Source of the DNA: Bacillota bacterium
Lineage (GTDB): Bacteria; Bacillota; Clostridia; Peptostreptococcales; Anaerovoracaceae
Length of the DNA stretch: 64,000 bases
Direction of reading: 5' to 3'
NCBI GenBank assembly: GCA_017522185.1
Contig: JAFWZZ010000034.1
Coordinates: 1 to 64,000 of the forward strand
Part shown: piece after piece, positions 3,035 through 40,004 of the stretch
Layout of the letters: each line of letters begins with the position of its first letter
How positions within the stretch are numbered: the stretch's first letter is position 1
Translations under genes and position numbers: made by a program
The notes under the pieces: generated by a model
Told to the model about the DNA's origin: nothing
Databases searched by the model: none
The model's input: the letters and a program-made list of their open reading frames with translations, nothing else

Positions 3035-3060
3035 CAGGCCTTGCAGGGCCTGTTTTTCTT
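3035..3060 (+). terminator. Terminator of dtd
   Basis: CAGGCC and GGCCTG form a GC-rich stem with a short loop followed by TTTTTCTTTTT, 12 bases after the dtd stop. Confidence 0.85.
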
Positions 3061-3339
3061 TTTGGATTTTAGTTTCTATAGAAACCAAACATAGCCTTTG
3101 CGAAACAAAAAAATGCTATTTAAAGGTGTTGGTTTCTTAAATTTCTAAAACTGTTTCTATAGAAACACTTTTTTCTCTTTTGACAACAAAACCAGATTTT
3201 TTAGGCTAAACAGTTTCCTAAATTCCTAAAATCGTTTCTATAGAAACAAAATTTGGAGCTATGACAACAAATAGTGCAGATTTGTTTCCGTACTATACAA
3301 AATCGTTTCTATAGAAACAAAAAACCTCTCTAAAGAAAC
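3051..3339. repeat. Intergenic palindrome array A (4 units)
   Basis: The 343-base space between dtd and the EamA gene has no gene. It holds four exact copies of the palindrome GTTTC-TATA-GAAAC at 3072, 3153, 3234 and 3305 (steps of 81, 81 and 71). Each is flanked 21 bases upstream by another GTTTC-like half-site and 21 bases downstream by GAAAC or GACAAC. The DNA between half-sites is not conserved. The same geometry recurs in arrays B and D. Confidence 0.9.
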
Positions 3340-13413: not shown

Positions 13414-13906
13414 TCCGAACAACGTGAATAGAAAAAACACCAAGCGTGGCATCCTGATCTGTTTATTACTTCTTATTATGGCTGTGTGCGTTGGAGTGTT
13501 AAGCATTCACGCATACTTTACTGATACTGATTCCGTAAACAATAACTTTACGGTAGGGGAAAACGTAATCGAAATTACAGACGATGAAAATATCGTTGTA
13601 AAGAATGTGAAGACCGACAGAGCTGTTCCTTGTTACATTCGTGTATTCGTAGAATTAGAGAGACCAGAAATGACGATGACCGCAACCTGGAATACAGGAG
13701 ACTCTGGCGACTGGACAATGCGTCAAGGTGACTACTATTATTATAAGCATGTAGTTGCACCTGGTGATTCAACGAAACCATTGTTATCTGGCGTAACAAT
13801 GAGCGAAGATGCAAAGTTGATTGTTTATGCAGAAAGTATTCAGGCAGAAGCAATTGTTAGCGGGAGCGAAGGCGCTTTCGAAGCATTCAATAAGCCAAAT
13901 AATTAA
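13400..13906 (+). CDS. Second SipW-cognate TasA-like small protein
   Basis: 168-residue exported protein with a long basic N-terminus, a hydrophobic core (ILICLLLLIMAVCVGVL) and AYFTDTDSVNNNF, the SipW-type cleavage region. The mature part is a single beta domain (VPCYIRVFVELE, GDYYYYKHVVAPGD, LIVYAESIQAEAI) related to the TasA-like proteins before it. An AAAGGAGACAGAACAGG stretch inside the previous gene supplies the ribosome site. Probably a minor fibre or adaptor component processed by the SipW encoded downstream. Confidence 0.75.
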   Translation: MKKSNPNNVNRKNTKRGILICLLLLIMAVCVGVLSIHAYFTDTDSVNNNFTVGENVIEITDDENIVVKNVKTDRAVPCYIRVFVELERPEMTMTATWNTGDSGDWTMRQGDYYYYKHVVAPGDSTKPLLSGVTMSEDAKLIVYAESIQAEAIVSGSEGAFEAFNKPNN

Positions 13907-13938
13907 GTTATAACTCAATGAGAAGGGAATTCCTAAAA

Positions 13939-16900
13939 ATGACAAACAAAAACAAAGGGAAAAAACTTCATAATATATTTAAAAGAGCTACCTCCATCAT
14001 GCTGATGGTTGCGCTTATTCTGACTACCCCAGGTATAATTCCAAATGTAGATCTTCCGGGTGTAGATAAAGCAGCAGCAGAAAATCCTACCTTGGAACTT
14101 TATCCAGGCGGTAATGTTGACAATGTAACAATTTGCAAAGGGGATTTTATTACCATAAGAGCATACAATAAAGGAAATGACAATGCGTGGGTTGGAATCT
14201 TTCCAGCAAGTACTGCAGAGGCAGGAAACTGGGGGGAATGTGAGGACTGGGCATGGTATTATGTATGGGACTATAAGGATAAAGGAGAGGGTTCCTATAA
14301 CTTTGACGGCGACTGGGCCGACATACGTTGGTATATGCGGAATACTACGTGGACAAGCGACAGAGCAAAGGTCGATGAGCGTTTCTCGTTAAATGGAACA
14401 TACAAGATTGTACTTTTTTCATCAGGATATAATGTTGTTACTTCGAGAACTATTACGATTGCAGATCATACTTATGGATCGTGGACTACTACTAAATCTG
14501 CAACCTGTACTGAAACAGGTTCGCGTTATAAAACTTGTAGTAGATGCGGTGAAGACGCTTCAAAACATAAAGTTACGGAAACAATTCCAAAAAATTCTTC
14601 TAACCACTCAGGACTTACTAAGGGGGGCGAGGCTGGAATACATCAAAAGTGTACTGGTTGTGGTGTAACAACACAAGGCTCTTCATATCACAGCTATTCT
14701 ACATCTACTACAGCGTCACCAGGCTATACCACATATACTTGTTCATGTGGATACAGCTATAAAGTTGGACATACGTACACCGTGAAGTATAACGGTAATG
14801 GAAATACAGGAGGATCTACTGCAAATTCTACCCACACTTATGGTACTGGAAAAGCTCTTACAGCAAACGGCTTTACTAAAACTGGGTACACCTTCACTGG
14901 TTGGAACAAGAAGGCCGATGGAAGCGGAACTGCTTATGCAGATAAGGCCTCTGTGAATAATCTGACTTCTACTGCTGGTGGAACAGTAAACTTGTATGCA
15001 CAGTGGAAAGCGAATACCTATACGATTGCATATAATGCGAACAACGGATCAGGCACAATGTCTAACACATCGGCTACATATGATGCAAATGTGACATTAA
15101 GAAACAATTCCTTTACAAGAACAAACTATGCATTTGTTGGATGGAATACAAAATCTGACGGAAGCGGTACAAGTTATGCGAACGGTGCCACTGTAAAGAA
15201 CCTTGCTACAAGCGGAACTGTTACACTGTATGCACAGTGGGAAAAGACTTATACTGTAAAGTTTAACGGTAATGGAAATACAGGAGGTTCAACAGCAAAC
15301 CAGACCTTCATATATGGAACAGCCCAAAATCTAACAGCGAATGGATTTACTAAAACTGGATACACCTTCACTGGTTGGAACAAGAAGGCCGATGGAAGCG
15401 GAACTGCTTATGCAAATAAGGCCTCTGTGAATAATCTGACTTCTACTGCTGGTGAAACAGTAAACTTGTATGCACAGTGGAAGGCGAACACCTACACTGT
15501 AACGTTTAACGGGAATGGTGCAACATCCGGTACGATGAATGACCAAACTCATACATATGACACTCCTCTGGCTTTAACGGAAAACGCATATAAGAAAACA
15601 GGCTATACGTTTGCAGGTTGGGCGACAAGTGCAGATGGAAGTGTTAAATACAGTAATGAAGAGTCCGTTAAAAACCTGACCGCAACAAAGGACGGTACGG
15701 TAACTCTGTATGCAAAGTGGATTGCAAACACCTACACTGCGACGTTTAATTCAAATGGCGGGGGAACACCAAGTGCTTCTACCATAAAAAAGGATTACAA
15801 CTCTGAACTTGGAACGCTGCCAACAGTAAGTAGAACGGGATATACATTCAATGGTTGGTACACTGAAAAAAGTGGTGGAAATAAGATTTCAACAACCACT
15901 AAATTAACTGCAGATGTGACGTATTATGCACAGTGGACAGCGAATACTGACACTCCATATAAAGTAAATCATTATCTGATGGACCTGAATGGAGATTATC
16001 CGTTAGTCCCAGATAATACTGTTTCCAAGACTGGTACTTCAGATAGTACAGTGACTCTTTCTGATCTAAAGGATATTAGCTTAGAAGGATTCACTTATGC
16101 AGAAGGTAAGGTTGAAGGCAGTGTAGTGACTACAACTACAATTGCACCGGACGGAAGCAGAGTGATTGACTTGTACTATAGCAGAAATGAGTATCAGATA
16201 ACGCTTAGCAATGGAACTGGTATTGCTTCTACAAGCGGAGACGGTACATATTACTATGGTGAAGCGGTATCTGTTGATGCAACACTGAATGCTGAAGGAT
16301 ATACTTGGAGTCATTGGGAAGATGCAGAAGGAAATGTTATCTCCACAGACAAAGTGTATGCTTTCAATATGCCGACAGGAGATGTCAGCCTTACAGCTGT
16401 TGCAACACCAAATACTTATATCGTAGAGTTTGATGGAAACAATGCTTCTAGCGGTTCGATGGCTAATTTAGAAATGACCTATGATACTGCGAAAACATTG
16501 CCTGAAAACACATTCACTAAGACTGGTTATGTCTTTGACGGTTGGAACACAAAGGCTGATGGAAGCGGAACTGCTTATACAGATCAGGTTTCTGTTAATA
16601 ATCTGACTAGCACAAACGGCGGAACTGTTACTCTGTATGCACAGTGGACTCCTATTACTTACACAGTAACATATGATGGAAATGGTGCGACAGGCGGTTC
16701 TACAGCGGATTCGACACACACTTATGGTGTATCAAAGCCGTTAACTGCAAATGGCTTTGAAAAACCTGGCTATGCTTTTGCGGGTTGGGCAACAAGCGAA
16801 GACGGAGAGGTTGAATATGTAGACAAGGCGTCTGTAAGCAACCTGACTTCTACCAATGGTGCTACAATTACCTTGTATGCACAGTGGGAAGAGCCTAGAT

Positions 16901-17274
16901 GTAAGATTATCGCAACAGATACATTCTTAAAAGAAGAAATCGAGTTTGCGCATGGTAATCCAACCTTTATCTTCAAGGCTACTGCCGGAGATGAGGTGTA
17001 TTACAAAGCAGTCGCTTTAGAGTCTATTCCTGAAGATGATAAAGCTACAGTTACTGTAACAGCAGTCTTTGATAATTTACCAAAGGCATGCTATACTGTT
17101 ACTGAAGTTGACACTTACAGATACAATGTTAAGACAGGCTTTGAGCACTTTGTATGCGACTTTACAAATGTTACAAAGGTAGAAGACTATACTAAGTATG
17201 CACCTTTTGAAAGTGAGGTTGAACATTACCGCTGGTTCAGCCACAACGACCTGAAAATCTTCAGTGCAAATTAA
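13939..17274 (+). CDS. InlB B-repeat (Listeria-Bacteroides repeat) surface protein
   Basis: 1111-residue exported protein. After a signal peptide (to about residue 47, KAAAEN) comes a unique beta domain, then a Cys-rich stretch with three CxxC/CxC pairs (TCSRCG, KCTGCG, CSCG), then about seven InlB B-repeats of the pattern YTVxFxGNG...GYTFxGWxxKxDGSGTxY...LYAQW. A MucBP-like module (PYKVNHYLMDLNGDYPL) interrupts the repeats near two thirds. The C-terminus has a different beta domain and no sorting motif or membrane helix. The start at 13939 is preferred over 13918 because AGAAGGGA lies about 10 bases before it. Likely an adhesin or scaffold of the same surface structure; the repeats are near-identical in places. 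Confidence 0.8.
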   Translation: MTNKNKGKKLHNIFKRATSIMLMVALILTTPGIIPNVDLPGVDKAAAENPTLELYPGGNVDNVTICKGDFITIRAYNKGNDNAWVGIFPASTAEAGNWGECEDWAWYYVWDYKDKGEGSYNFDGDWADIRWYMRNTTWTSDRAKVDERFSLNGTYKIVLFSSGYNVVTSRTITIADHTYGSWTTTKSATCTETGSRYKTCSRCGEDASKHKVTETIPKNSSNHSGLTKGGEAGIHQKCTGCGVTTQGSSYHSYSTSTTASPGYTTYTCSCGYSYKVGHTYTVKYNGNGNTGGSTANSTHTYGTGKALTANGFTKTGYTFTGWNKKADGSGTAYADKASVNNLTSTAGGTVNLYAQWKANTYTIAYNANNGSGTMSNTSATYDANVTLRNNSFTRTNYAFVGWNTKSDGSGTSYANGATVKNLATSGTVTLYAQWEKTYTVKFNGNGNTGGSTANQTFIYGTAQNLTANGFTKTGYTFTGWNKKADGSGTAYANKASVNNLTSTAGETVNLYAQWKANTYTVTFNGNGATSGTMNDQTHTYDTPLALTENAYKKTGYTFAGWATSADGSVKYSNEESVKNLTATKDGTVTLYAKWIANTYTATFNSNGGGTPSASTIKKDYNSELGTLPTVSRTGYTFNGWYTEKSGGNKISTTTKLTADVTYYAQWTANTDTPYKVNHYLMDLNGDYPLVPDNTVSKTGTSDSTVTLSDLKDISLEGFTYAEGKVEGSVVTTTTIAPDGSRVIDLYYSRNEYQITLSNGTGIASTSGDGTYYYGEAVSVDATLNAEGYTWSHWEDAEGNVISTDKVYAFNMPTGDVSLTAVATPNTYIVEFDGNNASSGSMANLEMTYDTAKTLPENTFTKTGYVFDGWNTKADGSGTAYTDQVSVNNLTSTNGGTVTLYAQWTPITYTVTYDGNGATGGSTADSTHTYGVSKPLTANGFEKPGYAFAGWATSEDGEVEYVDKASVSNLTSTNGATITLYAQWEEPRCKIIATDTFLKEEIEFAHGNPTFIFKATAGDEVYYKAVALESIPEDDKATVTVTAVFDNLPKACYTVTEVDTYRYNVKTGFEHFVCDFTNVTKVEDYTKYAPFESEVEHYRWFSHNDLKIFSAN
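14872..15480 (+). repeat. Near-identical direct repeats within the InlB-repeat gene
   Basis: The segments 14872-15006 and 15346-15480 are almost identical over about 135 bases (a handful of differences, such as GATAAG versus AATAAG), 474 bases apart. This is far closer than the other repeats of the gene, so recent duplication or gene conversion is likely. Confidence 0.85.
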
Positions 17275-17850: not shown

Positions 17851-19320
17851 ATGAAGAAGTATTTTAAGAAGAACAGAAAATCCATGCAGATTTTGGTAGT
17901 GCTGCTGTCTTTGATATTTGCATGTACAGCAGGATTTGCTTATGCCAATACAGAGTCTGCAGCCGTGACCGAAGCAAATTATATCTTAAAGCTGAGCCCG
18001 TATGACAGTGTACTGGGCGTTGGGGATCAGGTGATTGAAGGGGCCTTGGACCTGTACAGACTTTCTGACAACTATAGAAATGTAGTATCCATCAGCAAAA
18101 GCACACCTTACACAGTAGAAAGCTTCCAGCCGGAAGTTTTGACTGCAGAAATCACAAGACCATATCCTGACACCAGTCCAAATTACTATGCCCTTGTGCT
18201 CAATGCAATCAGCCCGGGTGCTGCAACCATTCGTGTAGCAAATCAGTCGGGTACCATTGTAGCAGACGCCCAGGTGACGGTTTTGGGCCCTGAGGGGATG
18301 GTTATTGAAGGATTCCCGGAAGGCACGAAGACTGTGGAAAAATCCAGAGTCATCACCTTGGAAAAAGAATATACGGCAACTTTTGGCGAGTACTACAGCA
18401 ACAAGTTCAAGACAGATGAAGAGATTGTCCTGACTTCCAGCAATCCAAAGGTAGCAGCCATTGAAACCGGAGATAACAGCTTCTCTGCAGCCCAGCGTAT
18501 TAGAGGTGTGTCCAAAGGTACTGCAACCATTACGGCTACTTTTGTGAAAGAAGGTGCATTACAGGGCATCGTTAAAACCTTTGATGTAGCCGTAACAGAA
18601 AGACCAAAGGCAACAGCACCGAAGCTGATTGGTCAGCTGGCAGGCGGTTGGGAAGTAGGCCACAACGGCAATACCCTTGAGTTCGTACTGAAAGCAGAAG
18701 CCGGCATTTATGAAATCTGGAGATCCACCTCTCCAACAAAAAACTTTAAGAGAGTGGGAAAGGTAACCGTTGAGGAAGTATCTTACATGACAGATACTTT
18801 GCATGTACATGGATATCCTGCAGGCCATCAGGCAGGCGACTGGGTTATGTATAATGACTCCAAGAACGTGAAGCAGAATACCAAGTACTACTACAAGGTT
18901 CGTGTGAAGTACACAGGTGCTGAATTTGACCACAGCTGGAGTAAATTCTCCAAGGTGCAGGCTTACTGGACAGCACCAAAGCCGGTTCCTGACAAGAAGG
19001 TAAAACACAACAAGAGCACCAAGAAGGTAACCATTCCAAAACAGCCAAAGAAGGTAAACGGATATATTTACAGCGTAGGTGCATCCAAGCACCTGGGCTA
19101 TAACATCTTTGGTCAGGAAGTCAGATACCGTTCCGGTGCAAGAAGACTGACAACCAAGAGAAGTTTCAAGGTAAGCAACATTGACGGTATGCGTGTAACC
19201 GTTGTGTATGACGTTATTCCATACGTAAAGCACGGAAAGTATTATTATGTATCCGGCTATAAGCCAATGAAGAATATCAAGAAGCTGAAGGAATACTACG
19301 GCGCAGATAAGTACGTATAA
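17851..19320 (+). CDS. Secreted BIG/FnIII-type surface protein
   Basis: 489-residue exported protein: signal peptide (about 1-33, FAYANTES), an N-terminal beta domain with a BIG_2-like strand pattern (NAISPGAATIRVANQSG), a second BIG_2-like domain (SSNPKVAAIETGDNSF...GVSKGTATITA), then FnIII-like domains (QNTKYYYKVRVKY, GKYYYVSGYKPM). It is rich in Lys toward the end, ionic wall attachment being possible; no sorting motif is present. The start at 17851 has an AGGAGAAGGG ribosome site; upstream codons overlap the preceding terminator. It lies between two copies of a sipW-terminator segment, so its place here is probably the result of a rearrangement. Confidence 0.75.
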   Translation: MKKYFKKNRKSMQILVVLLSLIFACTAGFAYANTESAAVTEANYILKLSPYDSVLGVGDQVIEGALDLYRLSDNYRNVVSISKSTPYTVESFQPEVLTAEITRPYPDTSPNYYALVLNAISPGAATIRVANQSGTIVADAQVTVLGPEGMVIEGFPEGTKTVEKSRVITLEKEYTATFGEYYSNKFKTDEEIVLTSSNPKVAAIETGDNSFSAAQRIRGVSKGTATITATFVKEGALQGIVKTFDVAVTERPKATAPKLIGQLAGGWEVGHNGNTLEFVLKAEAGIYEIWRSTSPTKNFKRVGKVTVEEVSYMTDTLHVHGYPAGHQAGDWVMYNDSKNVKQNTKYYYKVRVKYTGAEFDHSWSKFSKVQAYWTAPKPVPDKKVKHNKSTKKVTIPKQPKKVNGYIYSVGASKHLGYNIFGQEVRYRSGARRLTTKRSFKVSNIDGMRVTVVYDVIPYVKHGKYYYVSGYKPMKNIKKLKEYYGADKYV

Positions 19321-30398: not shown

Positions 30399-31838
30399 AT
30401 GAAACTATATAGTGCAGTTGGAGAAACAACGGAATATGAAAAGAAGGCATATTTAGAGTGGAGACGACCAAAGAGCTGGTGCAAGACGGTTAGTGCCTTT
30501 GCCAATGGAAAAGGGGGCAGCCTCGTATTTGGTGTGGATGATAAGAACCATGTACTCGGTCTAGAGAATGCACAAAAGGACGCGGAAAAAATCAGCGAAC
30601 TTATCCAGAATAAGTTGGATCCGCTGCCGACGTTTTCCATTCGCATCATCGAGGAAGAAGGTAAGCTTCTTATAGTATTGGACATTGAAGAAGGAAAAGA
30701 AACCCCTTATTACGTTATCAGTGATGGAAATCGAATTGCTTATCACCGGATTGGTAATCAGTCTGTTCCGGCAGATTCCTTAAAGCTTCGTGAACTGACT
30801 CTGCGTGGGGCCAGAATAACGTATGACACGCTATCTACGCGTTTTCATGCGATGGACTTTGCTTTTACAAAACTAAAGGCCACATATTATCAGCGCACAG
30901 GAAACAGTTTTGCCGAAAGTGATTTTGAATCATTTGGATTAATCGACACAGAAGGATTCTTAACCAACGCAGGTGCTTTACTTTGTGATGAACCACCACT
31001 ACGACATTCGCGATTGTTTTGTACACGATGGAACGGATTGACGAAAGCATCTGGCGTAATGGATGCTTTAGACGATAGCGAGTTTACTGGCAGCTTGATT
31101 TCATTATTGCAAGAGGGGCTATCATTTATCCGGAAAAATGCAAAGAAAATGTGGAGAAAGAATGGGGAGTGCAGAGAAGAACTTCCAGATTATCCTGAGG
31201 ACAGTATCAGAGAGGCATTAGTCAATGCTTTGATTCATCGTGATTACCTGGAACTGGGCAGTGAGGTGCATATCGATATGTATGATGACCGTTTGGAAAT
31301 TTACTCGCCAGGAGGAATGTGCGATGGATCCTATATTCAGGATTTAGATTTGGATGGGATTTCTTCCAAACGAAGAAATCCTGTCATCGCAGATGTGTTC
31401 AGTCGCCTGAACTACATGGAGAGACGGGGGAGTGGTTTCAAGAAAATATGTGATCATTATGAAAGGCAAGCCAGATATGATGATACAAAGAAACCAAAGT
31501 TTTATTCTACGCAGCATTCTTTTCTGCTGACATTATGGAATTTAAACTACGCTCTACCAGAAAAAGCGACGATAAAAAGTGACGATAAAAAAGTGACGAT
31601 AAAAAGTGACGATGAAAAACGAACTGCTAAATCCGGTGTGCAATATGATATGATTTTGCAGTCTATGGAAAGGGAAAAACTGTATAAACTCAGTGACATT
31701 ACCTCGGTGCTGCAAGTGAAAGACACAAGAGCCAAAAATTTATTGAAGGATCTAATTCAGGAAGGAAAGATTGAACCAGTGGGCGCAAACCGCAACCGAC
31801 GTTATCGAAAAAGATATGAAGCGTCTGATGAAAAGTGA
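30399..31838 (+). CDS. AlbA_2/Schlafen-like ATP-binding regulator
   Basis: 479-residue protein of the AlbA_2 (divergent AAA-4, Schlafen-core) type. The N-terminus ETTEYEKKAYLEWRRPKSW...FANGKGGSLVFGVDD is the Schlafen-like nucleic-acid-binding core, here with a slightly altered E-x-K-x-S-x-WS pattern. A GHKL-like ATP-binding part follows (DSIREALVNALIHRDY, YSPGGMCDGSYIQDL, MERRGSGFKKICDHY). The tail has a Lys/Asp repeat (ATIKSDDKKVTIKSDDEK, from 31565) and a C-terminal winged helix. Proteins like this occur in mobile and defence contexts and act as regulators or stress effectors; this one's target is unknown. Confidence 0.8.
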   Translation: MKLYSAVGETTEYEKKAYLEWRRPKSWCKTVSAFANGKGGSLVFGVDDKNHVLGLENAQKDAEKISELIQNKLDPLPTFSIRIIEEEGKLLIVLDIEEGKETPYYVISDGNRIAYHRIGNQSVPADSLKLRELTLRGARITYDTLSTRFHAMDFAFTKLKATYYQRTGNSFAESDFESFGLIDTEGFLTNAGALLCDEPPLRHSRLFCTRWNGLTKASGVMDALDDSEFTGSLISLLQEGLSFIRKNAKKMWRKNGECREELPDYPEDSIREALVNALIHRDYLELGSEVHIDMYDDRLEIYSPGGMCDGSYIQDLDLDGISSKRRNPVIADVFSRLNYMERRGSGFKKICDHYERQARYDDTKKPKFYSTQHSFLLTLWNLNYALPEKATIKSDDKKVTIKSDDEKRTAKSGVQYDMILQSMEREKLYKLSDITSVLQVKDTRAKNLLKDLIQEGKIEPVGANRNRRYRKRYEASDEK

Positions 31839-32812: not shown

Positions 32813-33159
32813 TGAAATACATACTTTTCGGCGCCATTTGTCTCGTCTTTGCACTGCTGTGGCTGTACAGCGAAAGCCGGCGCAAAAACGCAGAGACACA
32901 GCTGGACGATGTGCGTCAGCAGCTTGCGCAGATTCAAAAGCAAAGCGGCAGTCAGGCGGATCAGCTTGCCGGCATGGAAGCCCGCTGTGACGACCAGAAA
33001 ACAAAGCAGCAGGCCTGCTTCGAGGCAGCCTGCAACATCCACCTCTATGCCCAGCTGGCAGCAGAAGAGGCAGCCGACGCAGCCCAGAGACAAAAACAGC
33101 AGATCATCCTCAGCGAAACGGAGAAGCTGCTGGATATCCTGAAAAGCGACGATAAATAG
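32809..33159 (+). CDS. Small membrane-anchored coiled-coil protein
   Basis: 116-residue protein with one N-terminal membrane helix (YILFGAICLVFALLWLY) and a long Gln/Ala-rich coiled coil (LDDVRQQLAQIQKQ, AAEEAADAAQRQKQQ) with two Cys in between. Start at the ATG of an ATGATG overlap with the previous stop; AAAGGAG is 7 bases upstream. Possibly the membrane partner of the preceding protein. No family recognised. Confidence 0.6.
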   Translation: MMKYILFGAICLVFALLWLYSESRRKNAETQLDDVRQQLAQIQKQSGSQADQLAGMEARCDDQKTKQQACFEAACNIHLYAQLAAEEAADAAQRQKQQIILSETEKLLDILKSDDK

Positions 33160-33167
33160 TGACGATA

Positions 33168-33214
33168 AAAAAGCACTGCTCGGGGCATCACAGGCCCGCT
33201 CAAGCAGTGCTTTT
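33168..33214. terminator. Bidirectional terminator
   Basis: AAAAGCACTGCT and AGCAGTGCTTTT form a 12-bp stem around a loop of about 22 bases. It can end the two-gene cassette (plus) and the short phage-type gene (minus). Confidence 0.85.
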
Positions 33215-35077: not shown

Positions 35078-35296
35078 GTTTTCTTTTTGTACCAAATTGT
35101 TTTCCAGGGAAAACCAATGTAGAAAAAAGAAAACTAATGATCAAAATACAGCATATGATTTTCTTAAAAGACCAAAAGGTTTTCTAATGAAAACGAAAAT
35201 CCTAAAAAAGAAAATTATTGTGCCCTATGTAAGAAATAGTTTTCAAATACTAGATAAATGTTTTCCATAGAAAACACAGCGTAGCAAAAAGAAAAC
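35078..35296. repeat. Intergenic palindrome array B (3 units)
   Basis: In the 440-base space before the Rieske oxidoreductase gene, three units are centred on GTTTTC-N4-GAAAAC at 35099, 35179 and 35260 (steps of 80 and 81). Each has an outer (G)TTTTC 21 bases before and GAAAAC or GAAAAT about 21 bases after. The first outer half-site is at 35078 and the last at 35291. No gene is visible in this space. Confidence 0.9.
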
Positions 35297-37157: not shown

Positions 37158-37402
37158 TTCTAGAAATTCAAGTAAAACCCGGATGTTTCTAGAAGTTTAG
37201 CCAGAGAAGTTCTAGAAAACGGGGCATAAATTGAATTTTTATAGAATTTTATTCCAAAAGGTTCTATAAAAGTGGGCTGAAACATGGAATTTCTAGAATT
37301 ACGCCACGCAAATTTCTAGAATTTAGAAGAATAATATCATTTTTCTAGAATAATGCAAGAAAAGTTCTAGAAAACAGCAGCTCCATGCATTGATTTCTAG
37401 AA
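37158..37402. repeat. Intergenic TTCTAGAA array C (52-bp period)
   Basis: The 382-base space before the CobW gene has no gene. TTCTAGAA occurs exactly at 37158, 37188, 37210, 37291, 37314, 37343, 37365 and 37395, with two one-step variants (TTATAGAA near 37237, TTCTATAA at 37262). Spacing alternates about 30 and 22 (30, 22, 27, 25, 29, 23, 29, 22, 30), so pairs repeat every 51-52 bp. Confidence 0.9.
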
Positions 37403-37491: not shown

Positions 37492-38676
37492 ATGACAAAA
37501 GTAGATATTTTCTCCGGCTTTTTAGGTGCGGGAAAGACAACTTTAATCAAGAAACTCATTGAAGAAGCATATAAAGATGAACAGATTGTTTTGATCGAGA
37601 ACGAATTTGGTGAAATTGGCATCGACGGCGGATTCCTGAAGGACGCTGGCGTGCAAATCAACGAAATGAACTCCGGCTGCATCTGCTGCTCCCTGGTTGG
37701 GGACTTCGGAAAGGCGCTGGAACAGGTGATTAATGACTACCATCCGGACAGAATCCTCATCGAGCCATCCGGCGTCGGCAAGCTGAGTGATGTCATCCAG
37801 GCAGTTAGAAATCTGCACAACGATGAAATCCAGCTCAACGGTTTTACCACTGTAGTTGACGCAAAGAAGGCAAAGATGTACATGAAGAACTTTGGCGAAT
37901 TCTTCAATAACCAGATTGAACACGCAAGTTCCATCATCCTGAGCCACACATCCGGTCTGGCACAGGCGAAGCTGGATGCCTGCGTTGAACTGCTGCGTCA
38001 GCATAACGAAGGTGCTTCCATCGTAACAACACCTTGGGAAGACATCACCGGCGCACAGATTCTGGAAACAATGGAACAAAAAAATACGCTGGCAGAACAG
38101 CTGGAAAAGTTAGAGGCAGAAGCACATCACCATCACCACCATCACGACAATGAACATGATCACGACCATCATCATGACCACGATGAACACTGCGACTGCG
38201 GCTGCCATGACCATGATTATCACGACCACGACCATGATCACCATCATGACCATGACCACCACCATGACCATCATGAACACCACCACGATCATGACCACCA
38301 CCATGACCATCATGAACACCACCACGATCACCACCACCATGACCACGATGAGCACTGCGACTGCGGCTGCCACGACCATGACCACCACCATCACCACGCA
38401 GATGAAGTATTCCAGAGTTTCGGCATGGAAACTGCACATAAATTCACAAAAGAACACATCGAGGAAGCCTTATCCGCACTTACCAACTTTGCGGAATACG
38501 GACAGGTGCTCCGTGCCAAGGGCATCGTAGAAGGCGAAGACGGTCAGTGGATCCACTTCGACTACGTACCTGGCGAACCAGACGTGAGATACGGCGGTGC
38601 GGCGGTTACCGGTATGCTTTGCGTTATCGGTGCCGGTTTAGAAGAAGACGCTATCAAAGAATTATTCGGCCTGTAA
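37492..38676 (+). CDS. CobW/P47K GTPase with extreme His-rich metal-binding insert
   Basis: 394-residue G3E GTPase, a candidate metallochaperone (ZNG1/YeiR-like). Walker A is GFLGAGKTT (9-17); the metal-binding CxCC motif is CICCSL (about 63-68); a Walker B/GxxxxP region is EPSGVGKL. Between the GTPase part and the C-terminal CobW_C domain lies a region of about 95 residues (residues about 210-305) made almost wholly of His, Asp and Glu, with CDCGCHDHD twice. It must bind many zinc or nickel ions. The next gene, 23 bases on, encodes a second CobW-like GTPase. Related zinc-responsive genes (Zur) are not in the window. Confidence 0.9.
   Translation: MTKVDIFSGFLGAGKTTLIKKLIEEAYKDEQIVLIENEFGEIGIDGGFLKDAGVQINEMNSGCICCSLVGDFGKALEQVINDYHPDRILIEPSGVGKLSDVIQAVRNLHNDEIQLNGFTTVVDAKKAKMYMKNFGEFFNNQIEHASSIILSHTSGLAQAKLDACVELLRQHNEGASIVTTPWEDITGAQILETMEQKNTLAEQLEKLEAEAHHHHHHHDNEHDHDHHHDHDEHCDCGCHDHDYHDHDHDHHHDHDHHHDHHEHHHDHDHHHDHHEHHHDHHHHDHDEHCDCGCHDHDHHHHHADEVFQSFGMETAHKFTKEHIEEALSALTNFAEYGQVLRAKGIVEGEDGQWIHFDYVPGEPDVRYGGAAVTGMLCVIGAGLEEDAIKELFGL
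38124..38401 (+). repeat. Low-complexity CAC/CAT/GAC coding repeat
   Basis: Irregular trinucleotide-like repeat (CAC, CAT, GAC, GAA) that encodes the His-rich insert. One longer block (GCGACTGCGGCTGCCA, encoding CDCGCH) occurs twice, near 38190 and 38357. It is prone to slippage, but stays in frame. Confidence 0.85.
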
Positions 38677-39705: not shown

Positions 39706-40004
39706 GTTTTCAAAATCCTGAAAAAAGTTTTCTATAGAAAAGGAATTCCCTTGAAAGGAAAACAAATATCGATTTGAATACAAATCGTTTTCAAAACCCC
39801 TAAAAAGTTTTCTCAGGAAAACGAAAGTATGAAAAAAGAAAAAAACACAAGAAAAAATGGGATTTGTTTTCTAAAATGACTAAAAAGTTTTCTATAGAAA
39901 ACGAATTTCCCTAAACAGAAAACGGATATTAATCTGAATGCAAATTGTTTTCTCAAAGAACTAAAAGGTTTTCCATAGAAAACAAATTCTCATGAACAGA
40001 AAAC
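39706..40004. repeat. Intergenic palindrome array D (4 units)
   Basis: In the 551-base gap before carD, four units are centred on GTTTTC-N4-GAAAAC at 39727, 39807, 39887 and 39968 (steps of 80, 80, 81). Each has an outer GTTTTC 20 or 21 bases before and an outer GAAAAC (GAAAAA in unit 2) 21 bases after. The spacing is exact even where the intervening bases differ. No gene is seen between 39642 and 40192. Confidence 0.92.

Follow-up and report, generated by a model that had tools for sequence, protein, structure and literature searches.

Array D, at 39706-40004 of the window (the whole stretch of 64,000 nucleotides that was analysed), is made up of four mirror-symmetric units, and 14 of its 16 half-sites are exact. 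The array is confirmed as an observed feature, and chance is excluded as its origin. It is probably, at a rough probability of 0.65, one of a family of intergenic cassettes that offer double-stranded sites to a putative sequence-specific protein. Across four species, the units of these arrays keep a nearly constant helical phase and not a fixed distance.

Array D and its units

The earlier note had described a four-unit mirror element with one spacer of 14 letters, repeated every 80 to 81 bp, and both parts of that description stand. The two changed half-sites differ by one letter each (GAAAAG at 39737 and GAAAAA at 39838), and the centres of neighbouring units are 80, 80, and 81 bp apart. When up to three mismatches are allowed, the full 24-letter pattern gives 6 matches in the window and 0 in 60 local Markov shuffles, a count outside which unit 2 falls because its N14 spacer leaves it with 4 mismatches when the register is fixed. 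The same pattern, which we call class 1, likewise gives 0 matches in 2 Mb of random sequence generated from the dinucleotide composition of array D. The comparison set beforehand as the test was the genome count against its control, and this came out clearly: the whole source genome (G000, 2.12 Mb in 35 contigs, with the window as contig C33) holds 21 class 1 matches and 0 matches to the reversed pattern.

Table 1. Units of array D and the other arrays of the window.
Feature	Position in window	Strand	Description	Basis
Array D unit 1	39706..39763		GTTTTC-N15-GTTTTC-N4-GAAAAG-N15-GAAAAC, one letter changed	Sequence and pattern search
Array D unit 2	39787..39843		N14 as the left spacer; GAAAAA as the outer right half-site	Sequence
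Array D unit 3	39866..39923		Exact	Sequence and pattern search
Array D unit 4	39947..40004		Exact	Sequence and pattern search
Second class 1 array	35078..35296		Three units, spaced by 80 and 81 bp	Pattern search
Class 2 array	3051..3339		Four units, GTTTC half-sites, 81, 81, 71 bp apart	
Class 3 array	37158..37402		Ten TTCTAGAA palindromes, two with one change	

The absence of matches in shuffles and matched random sequence, and for the reversed pattern in the genome, counts against chance, which we group with simple tandem duplication in A/T-rich DNA and a degenerate CRISPR as origins with next to no credibility. Tandem duplication has nevertheless played a part, as class 1 spacers of one array have an identity of 0.48, compared with 0.39 for those of different arrays (0.31 when shuffled), and one block in the relative G009 consists of near-identical units, but the geometry is kept in other species and the units contain no long invariant repeat. 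The geometry likewise agrees with the previous statement that the element is not a CRISPR, the conserved letters being six-letter half-sites in mirror order. That no cas genes lie nearby holds for ten proteins whose genes are close to arrays A to D, among which no Cas family was found. Hairpin and TATAAT-like sequences can be made out by eye on both flanks of array D, but a consensus scan did not recover them and no conclusion is built on them.

The window also contains repeats of other kinds. Short tandem repeats at 38125-38397, rich in CAC, CAT, and GAC codons, lie in a CobW-family gene (37492-38676), AAAAAGTGACGAT-like repeat units occur at two places 1.6 kb apart (31561-31620 and 33142-33173), and diverged repeats of about 240 bp are found at 14773-16908 inside a large open frame (13918-17274).

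Three classes of array in the source genome

Class 1 arrays, with GTTTTC half-sites, comprise 22 units once unit 2 of array D is included, and these form six arrays of three or four units on contigs C28, C33 (two), C34, and C35 (two). Class 2 has GTTTC half-sites at 0, 21, 30, and 51, and its 19 units make up five arrays on C21, C28, C32, C33, and C34. Because the short class 2 core alone shows no enrichment at two mismatches (37 matches against 31 reversed), class 2 units are defined by the full pattern together with array register. The outer half-sites of the class 2 array in the window are partly degenerate, with 3, 2, 2, and 0 mismatches in its four units.

Class 3 is formed of TTCTAGAA repeats, and a pair of these at 23 bp has 21 matches in the source genome compared with 1 for the control. 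Allowing one change gives eight class 3 arrays with 6 to 11 palindromes apiece; besides the window, they are found on C21 (four), C31 (two), and C34 (one). In the window array, gaps of 29-30 and 22-23 bp follow one another in turn. The general rhythm is 29-30 bp within a pair and 12, 22-23, 33, or 43 bp between pairs, so that the link distances step by about 10 bp. Two sites, the last of the window array and one in locus L134, are off this rhythm and may be due to chance.

Relatives and helical phase

Among 84,980 species, the exact class 1 pattern was matched in 7 stretches, namely three from Eubacterium sp. S30_Bin6 (G007), two from Bacillota RGIG4734, and two from Schlesneria. The Schlesneria stretches were dropped, as each sits within a single long and nearly perfect palindrome that follows a gene, and looks like chance. 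With at most one mismatch, class 1 is matched in 3 of 149 genomes (the source genome, G007, and G081), and the strict class 2 pattern is matched in 2 of 349 family genomes, again the source genome and G007, which have both half-site classes in common. Class 3 was found in the source genome only, out of 13 genus members. A class-neutral pattern with at most one mismatch gave 37 matches against 0 for the control in the source genome, 28 against 1 in G007, and 4 against 0 in G009, while the other ten genus members gave 0 to 3 against 0 to 2. Two of the 28 in G007 (C38:58675 and C78:46411) look like chance and were left out; in G011, one of three matches to the generic pattern lies within a long open frame and one is possibly a decayed single unit. 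IMG/VR phage contigs contain no exact match to class 1 or class 2.

The units found in these relatives are arranged differently in each. In G007, 13 pairs of units lie at 175, 176, 185 (three), 195, 196 (three), 206 (three), and 237 bp, and a single unit on C64 has no partner; only some of these pairs come near the consensus of a middle motif for which all 13 were searched. G009 has a variant unit with half-sites at 0, 20, 30, and 50 (36 matches against 0), and five of its units at C1:25426-25842 are exactly 91 bp apart and have spacers that resemble one another, so that this block looks recently expanded in tandem. Unit distances in RGIG4734 are 151, 153, 163, and 175 bp. A de novo repeat search of 20 stretches of G005 (400 kb) returned a CRISPR-like group and two others, none with this geometry; one stretch there (L149, C8:1362001-1382000) carries palindromic GCATCC-N4-GGATGC every 64-68 bp at 13539-14131 and 18567-19157, in CRISPR-like fashion.

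What is common to these arrangements is the phase. The 30 centre-to-centre distances of class 1 and class 2 in the source genome are 81 bp (22 of them), 80 bp (seven), and 71 bp (one), and across species the distances are 71, 80-82, 91, 101-102, 151-163, 175, 185, 195, 206, and 237 bp, stepping by near one helical turn. The 13 distances of G007 fit a period of 10.3 bp with an R of 0.97; three null models were tried, and in each of them 0 of 20,000 random sets attained this value. The 23 distances of G009 fit 10.15 bp with an R of 0.92 (0 of 5,000 random sets), although six of them are at least 150 bp and may span missed units with another centre, as happens in one array; when the tandem block on C1 is removed, R is 0.91. 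Pooling four species gives 20 distinct distances with a period of 10.4 bp and an R of 0.87 (0 of 5,000). The distances are partly non-independent throughout, as some arrays are duplicates of others. The best-fit period thus differs by set, and the 151-bp distance of RGIG4734 fits it poorly. Half-sites within a unit are two helical turns apart, and palindrome centres are at least 7 turns apart (7 to 23). The expectation that spacing would be kept in sister strains is therefore borne out for the inner unit geometry and the helical phase, and it fails for the repeat distance of 80-81 bp. Unit numbers and distances vary across G007, G009, and RGIG4734, while half-site sequence and helical phase persist, which points to selection on DNA geometry as position, unit number, and distance change.

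Conservation of sites and spacers

The half-sites are more constant than the spacers, and in class 1 they agree with the consensus at 95.6% of their letters. In a homologous pair of class 3 arrays, 1 of 64 site letters has changed as against 42 of 152 spacer letters (p 1e-6), although the first part of the alignment may be non-homologous and would then inflate the spacer count. The contrast is weak in the three full class 2 copies, where 4 of 80 site columns and 32 of 218 spacer columns vary (p 0.026).

The sequence between half-sites had been thought to drift, which is not borne out in the sense of free drift since the A/T content of the spacers is patterned. Taking 41 units from the source genome and 26 from G007, A/T makes up 0.85-1.0 of the letters that lie 10-12 and 19-22 bp away from the unit centre, and in both genomes it drops to 0.29-0.52 at 15-17 bp. 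The signal at 9.5-11 bp was matched by 0 of 1,000 spacer shuffles in each species, the patterned stretch being just 16 bp long so that its period is poorly resolved. At the unit centre, A/T is 0.72-0.83 at positions 1 and 2. The spacers are thus constrained in composition more than in letters. An alternation of A/T content like this one is a feature of bent DNA, as in nucleosomes and CAP sites.

Alternatively, the units could be transcribed and fold into nested hairpins as a structured RNA. Compared with 200 shuffled versions, both strands of array D do give better folds (z -3.6 and -4.3), but this is expected of inverted repeats anyway. Changes in class 1 half-sites go uncompensated, with 19 single and 2 double changes and only one of the two doubles complementary. 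Rfam families have no match in the window, which also holds no tRNA or tmRNA, and the sole Rfam match in five array loci is a cobalamin riboswitch (L106:677-877) that lies outside the array. The arrays also face their neighbour genes in every orientation, and a constant helical phase between units would have no reason in RNA, so a role as DNA is far likelier and a structured RNA is very unlikely. The earlier note had offered either a protein-binding array or a conserved RNA fold; protein binding is the one favoured here because of the constant phase, the conserved sites, the uncompensated changes, and the occurrence in all gene orientations.

A putative binding protein

In the protein-binding reading, a dimer or a pair of dimers would read the central GTTTTC-N4-GAAAAC palindrome in each 58-bp unit, and the same putative dimer or dimers would also read the outer half-sites, which lie two helical turns further out on either side. 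The A/T-rich stretches of the spacers may help the DNA to bend towards the protein. The near-constant helical phase would then place neighbouring complexes on one face of the DNA, where they might stack, wrap, or loop it. In this view the cassettes would be copied about, perhaps by duplication or transposition, after which binding would preserve their shape. We infer that a protein binds the arrays at all and that it would wrap or loop the DNA, that different paralogues probably serve the different half-site classes, and that the role is presumably one in local chromosome structure or insulation and not in the control of one gene.

A rival account is that the units are sites of a clamp protein of the ParB/Noc type. 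The GTTTC half-site, taken together with a centre of 4 bp, is similar to parS and to the Noc site, the TTTC-N4-GAAA core being that of parS, and both the source genome and G007 have a third ParB-like gene beside a neighbouring pair. However, G009 carries arrays with two ParB-like genes, the same number as G010 and G003, where these patterns do not exceed their controls, and G008 and G012 have four such genes and no array of these patterns. Contig C19 of the source genome, which bears the tandem ParB-like pair, has no array. Sliding clamps would also need no helical phasing. Sites for a ParB/Noc clamp are a most improbable account; in G009 the arrays occur without an extra cognate ParB-type gene, although an altered specificity of the standard pair is conceivable.

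Genomic context and possible mobility

The arrays sit between tandem, divergent, and convergent genes, and 40 neighbour proteins that were scanned (10 from the window, 14 more from the source genome, and 16 from G007) have no common theme. Gene calls were mechanical, and units are overlapped by several open frames in G007 that are short or have extended starts, and by one in the source genome. Array D itself is missing from six relatives in which the genes on either side of it are retained (G002, G005, G006, G007, G009, and G011). In these, the gap between the flanking-gene matches is 155 to 296 bp as compared with 552 bp in the source genome, and the locus has no unit of the three patterns tried. 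In G008, the gene upstream of array D was not found in the stretch. Because array D is absent in six relatives, it was either gained in this lineage or repeatedly lost. The hosts also do not need it at that place, given that six of them live without it, which counts against the protein-binding reading.

It is possible that the cassettes are selfish, MITE-like elements whose units bind a transposase or recombinase coded elsewhere and are conserved because only mobile copies multiply, without any function for the host. The loss or gain of array D between two retained genes would agree with this, as would the fact that the arrays adjoin unrelated genes. Close similarity over about 350 bp links the class 2 copies on C21, C28, and C32 and, in part, the one on C34; their ends carry a common inverted repeat (AAATTGGGATTTG / CAAATCCCAATTT), which is partial in C34. 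Yet this end repeat is not clear in any class 1 array, being a weak trace at L106 and absent at W35, W39, L109, L111, and L112, and no terminal inverted repeats were found for array D. No clear target duplications were seen by eye in the class 2 alignment. Class 1 spacers are nearly unrelated between arrays, which means that these copies are old, but they have kept their sites intact. Taken with the evidence on both sides, a purely selfish origin is unlikely.

Distribution over the chromosome

A wider proposal, built on the protein-binding reading, is that of a lineage-specific system of chromosome architecture. Here, fast-turnover wrapping cassettes would form nucleosome- or filament-like complexes at defined intergenic points, with each paralogue having its own half-site class (GTTTTC, GTTTC, and perhaps TTCTAGAA). 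We regard this as possible but tentative, with the odds against it. It might serve to delimit one portion of the chromosome, as the 19 arrays of the source genome are confined to 7 of its 35 contigs (C21, C28, and C31 to C35), or 641 of 2,120 kb. Random placement put them on seven or fewer contigs in 6e-5 of trials, in which the sizes of five contigs were estimated from the sum, and for class 1 and class 2 arrays alone the clustering has a P of 0.016.

This clustering does not convert into chromosome position because, when genes of the source genome were mapped to G005 (20 stretches covering 400 kb of a 2.08-Mb contig), only C33 could be placed, through 8 of 146 frames. With regard to marking of the terminus, a scan with a dif-like consensus gave no match. 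In G007, one pair of units shares its contig with the tandem ParB-like genes, which disfavours a rule restricted to the terminus.

Should the protein be found, the arrays would provide a bacterial case of dispersed, sequence-specific sites at which DNA is wrapped or looped and which differ from promoter operators, and would allow a direct test of chromosome-shaping against selfish noncoding cassettes. The arrays themselves are a ready-made bait for finding the putative protein.

Comparison with known systems

A search of the full-text literature, in which most subscription journals are not covered, returned no description of these arrays. Nearest in style are the REP/BIMEs and the BrickBuilt MITEs, both of which differ in defining points (PMC4596501, PMC2817692, PMC12306157). 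CRISPRs have long near-identical direct repeats with unique spacers, which array D lacks.

BrickBuilt, from Porphyromonas gingivalis, is a MITE described as intergenic, with about 19 copies, tandem repeats, and terminal inverted repeats (PMC4596501). Array D is likewise intergenic and absent at the same locus in relatives. However, the tandem units of BrickBuilt are, in that account, identical, 23 nt long, and without spacers, whereas array D has phased mirror half-sites and no terminal repeats. REP/BIMEs are extragenic palindromes, often regularly clustered, that bind several proteins; REPs are said to start with GTAG or similar, to number usually more than 100 per genome, and to go with RAYT transposases (PMC2817692). 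In contrast, there are 41 units of class 1 and class 2, with GTTTTC or GTTTC half-sites and no GTAG-like start.

In manner of working, the closest parallel is with the site clusters of Lrp-type regulators such as Ss-LrpB and Ah-BarR, where an A/T-rich centre, two half-sites, helical alignment, and wrapped DNA are described (PMC2995911, PMC10201364). As in those clusters, the palindromic sites of array D lie on one helical face, with an A/T-rich centre flanked by half-sites. The Lrp-type clusters as presented there serve in promoter control, often of the regulator's own promoter, with sites two or three turns apart. The present arrays differ in having dozens of units at many loci, also between convergent genes, and four half-sites per unit; their units are 7 to 23 turns apart, with a two-turn distance seen between half-sites inside a unit. 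By analogy, then, array D may work like an Lrp-type cluster, although we do not file it as one.
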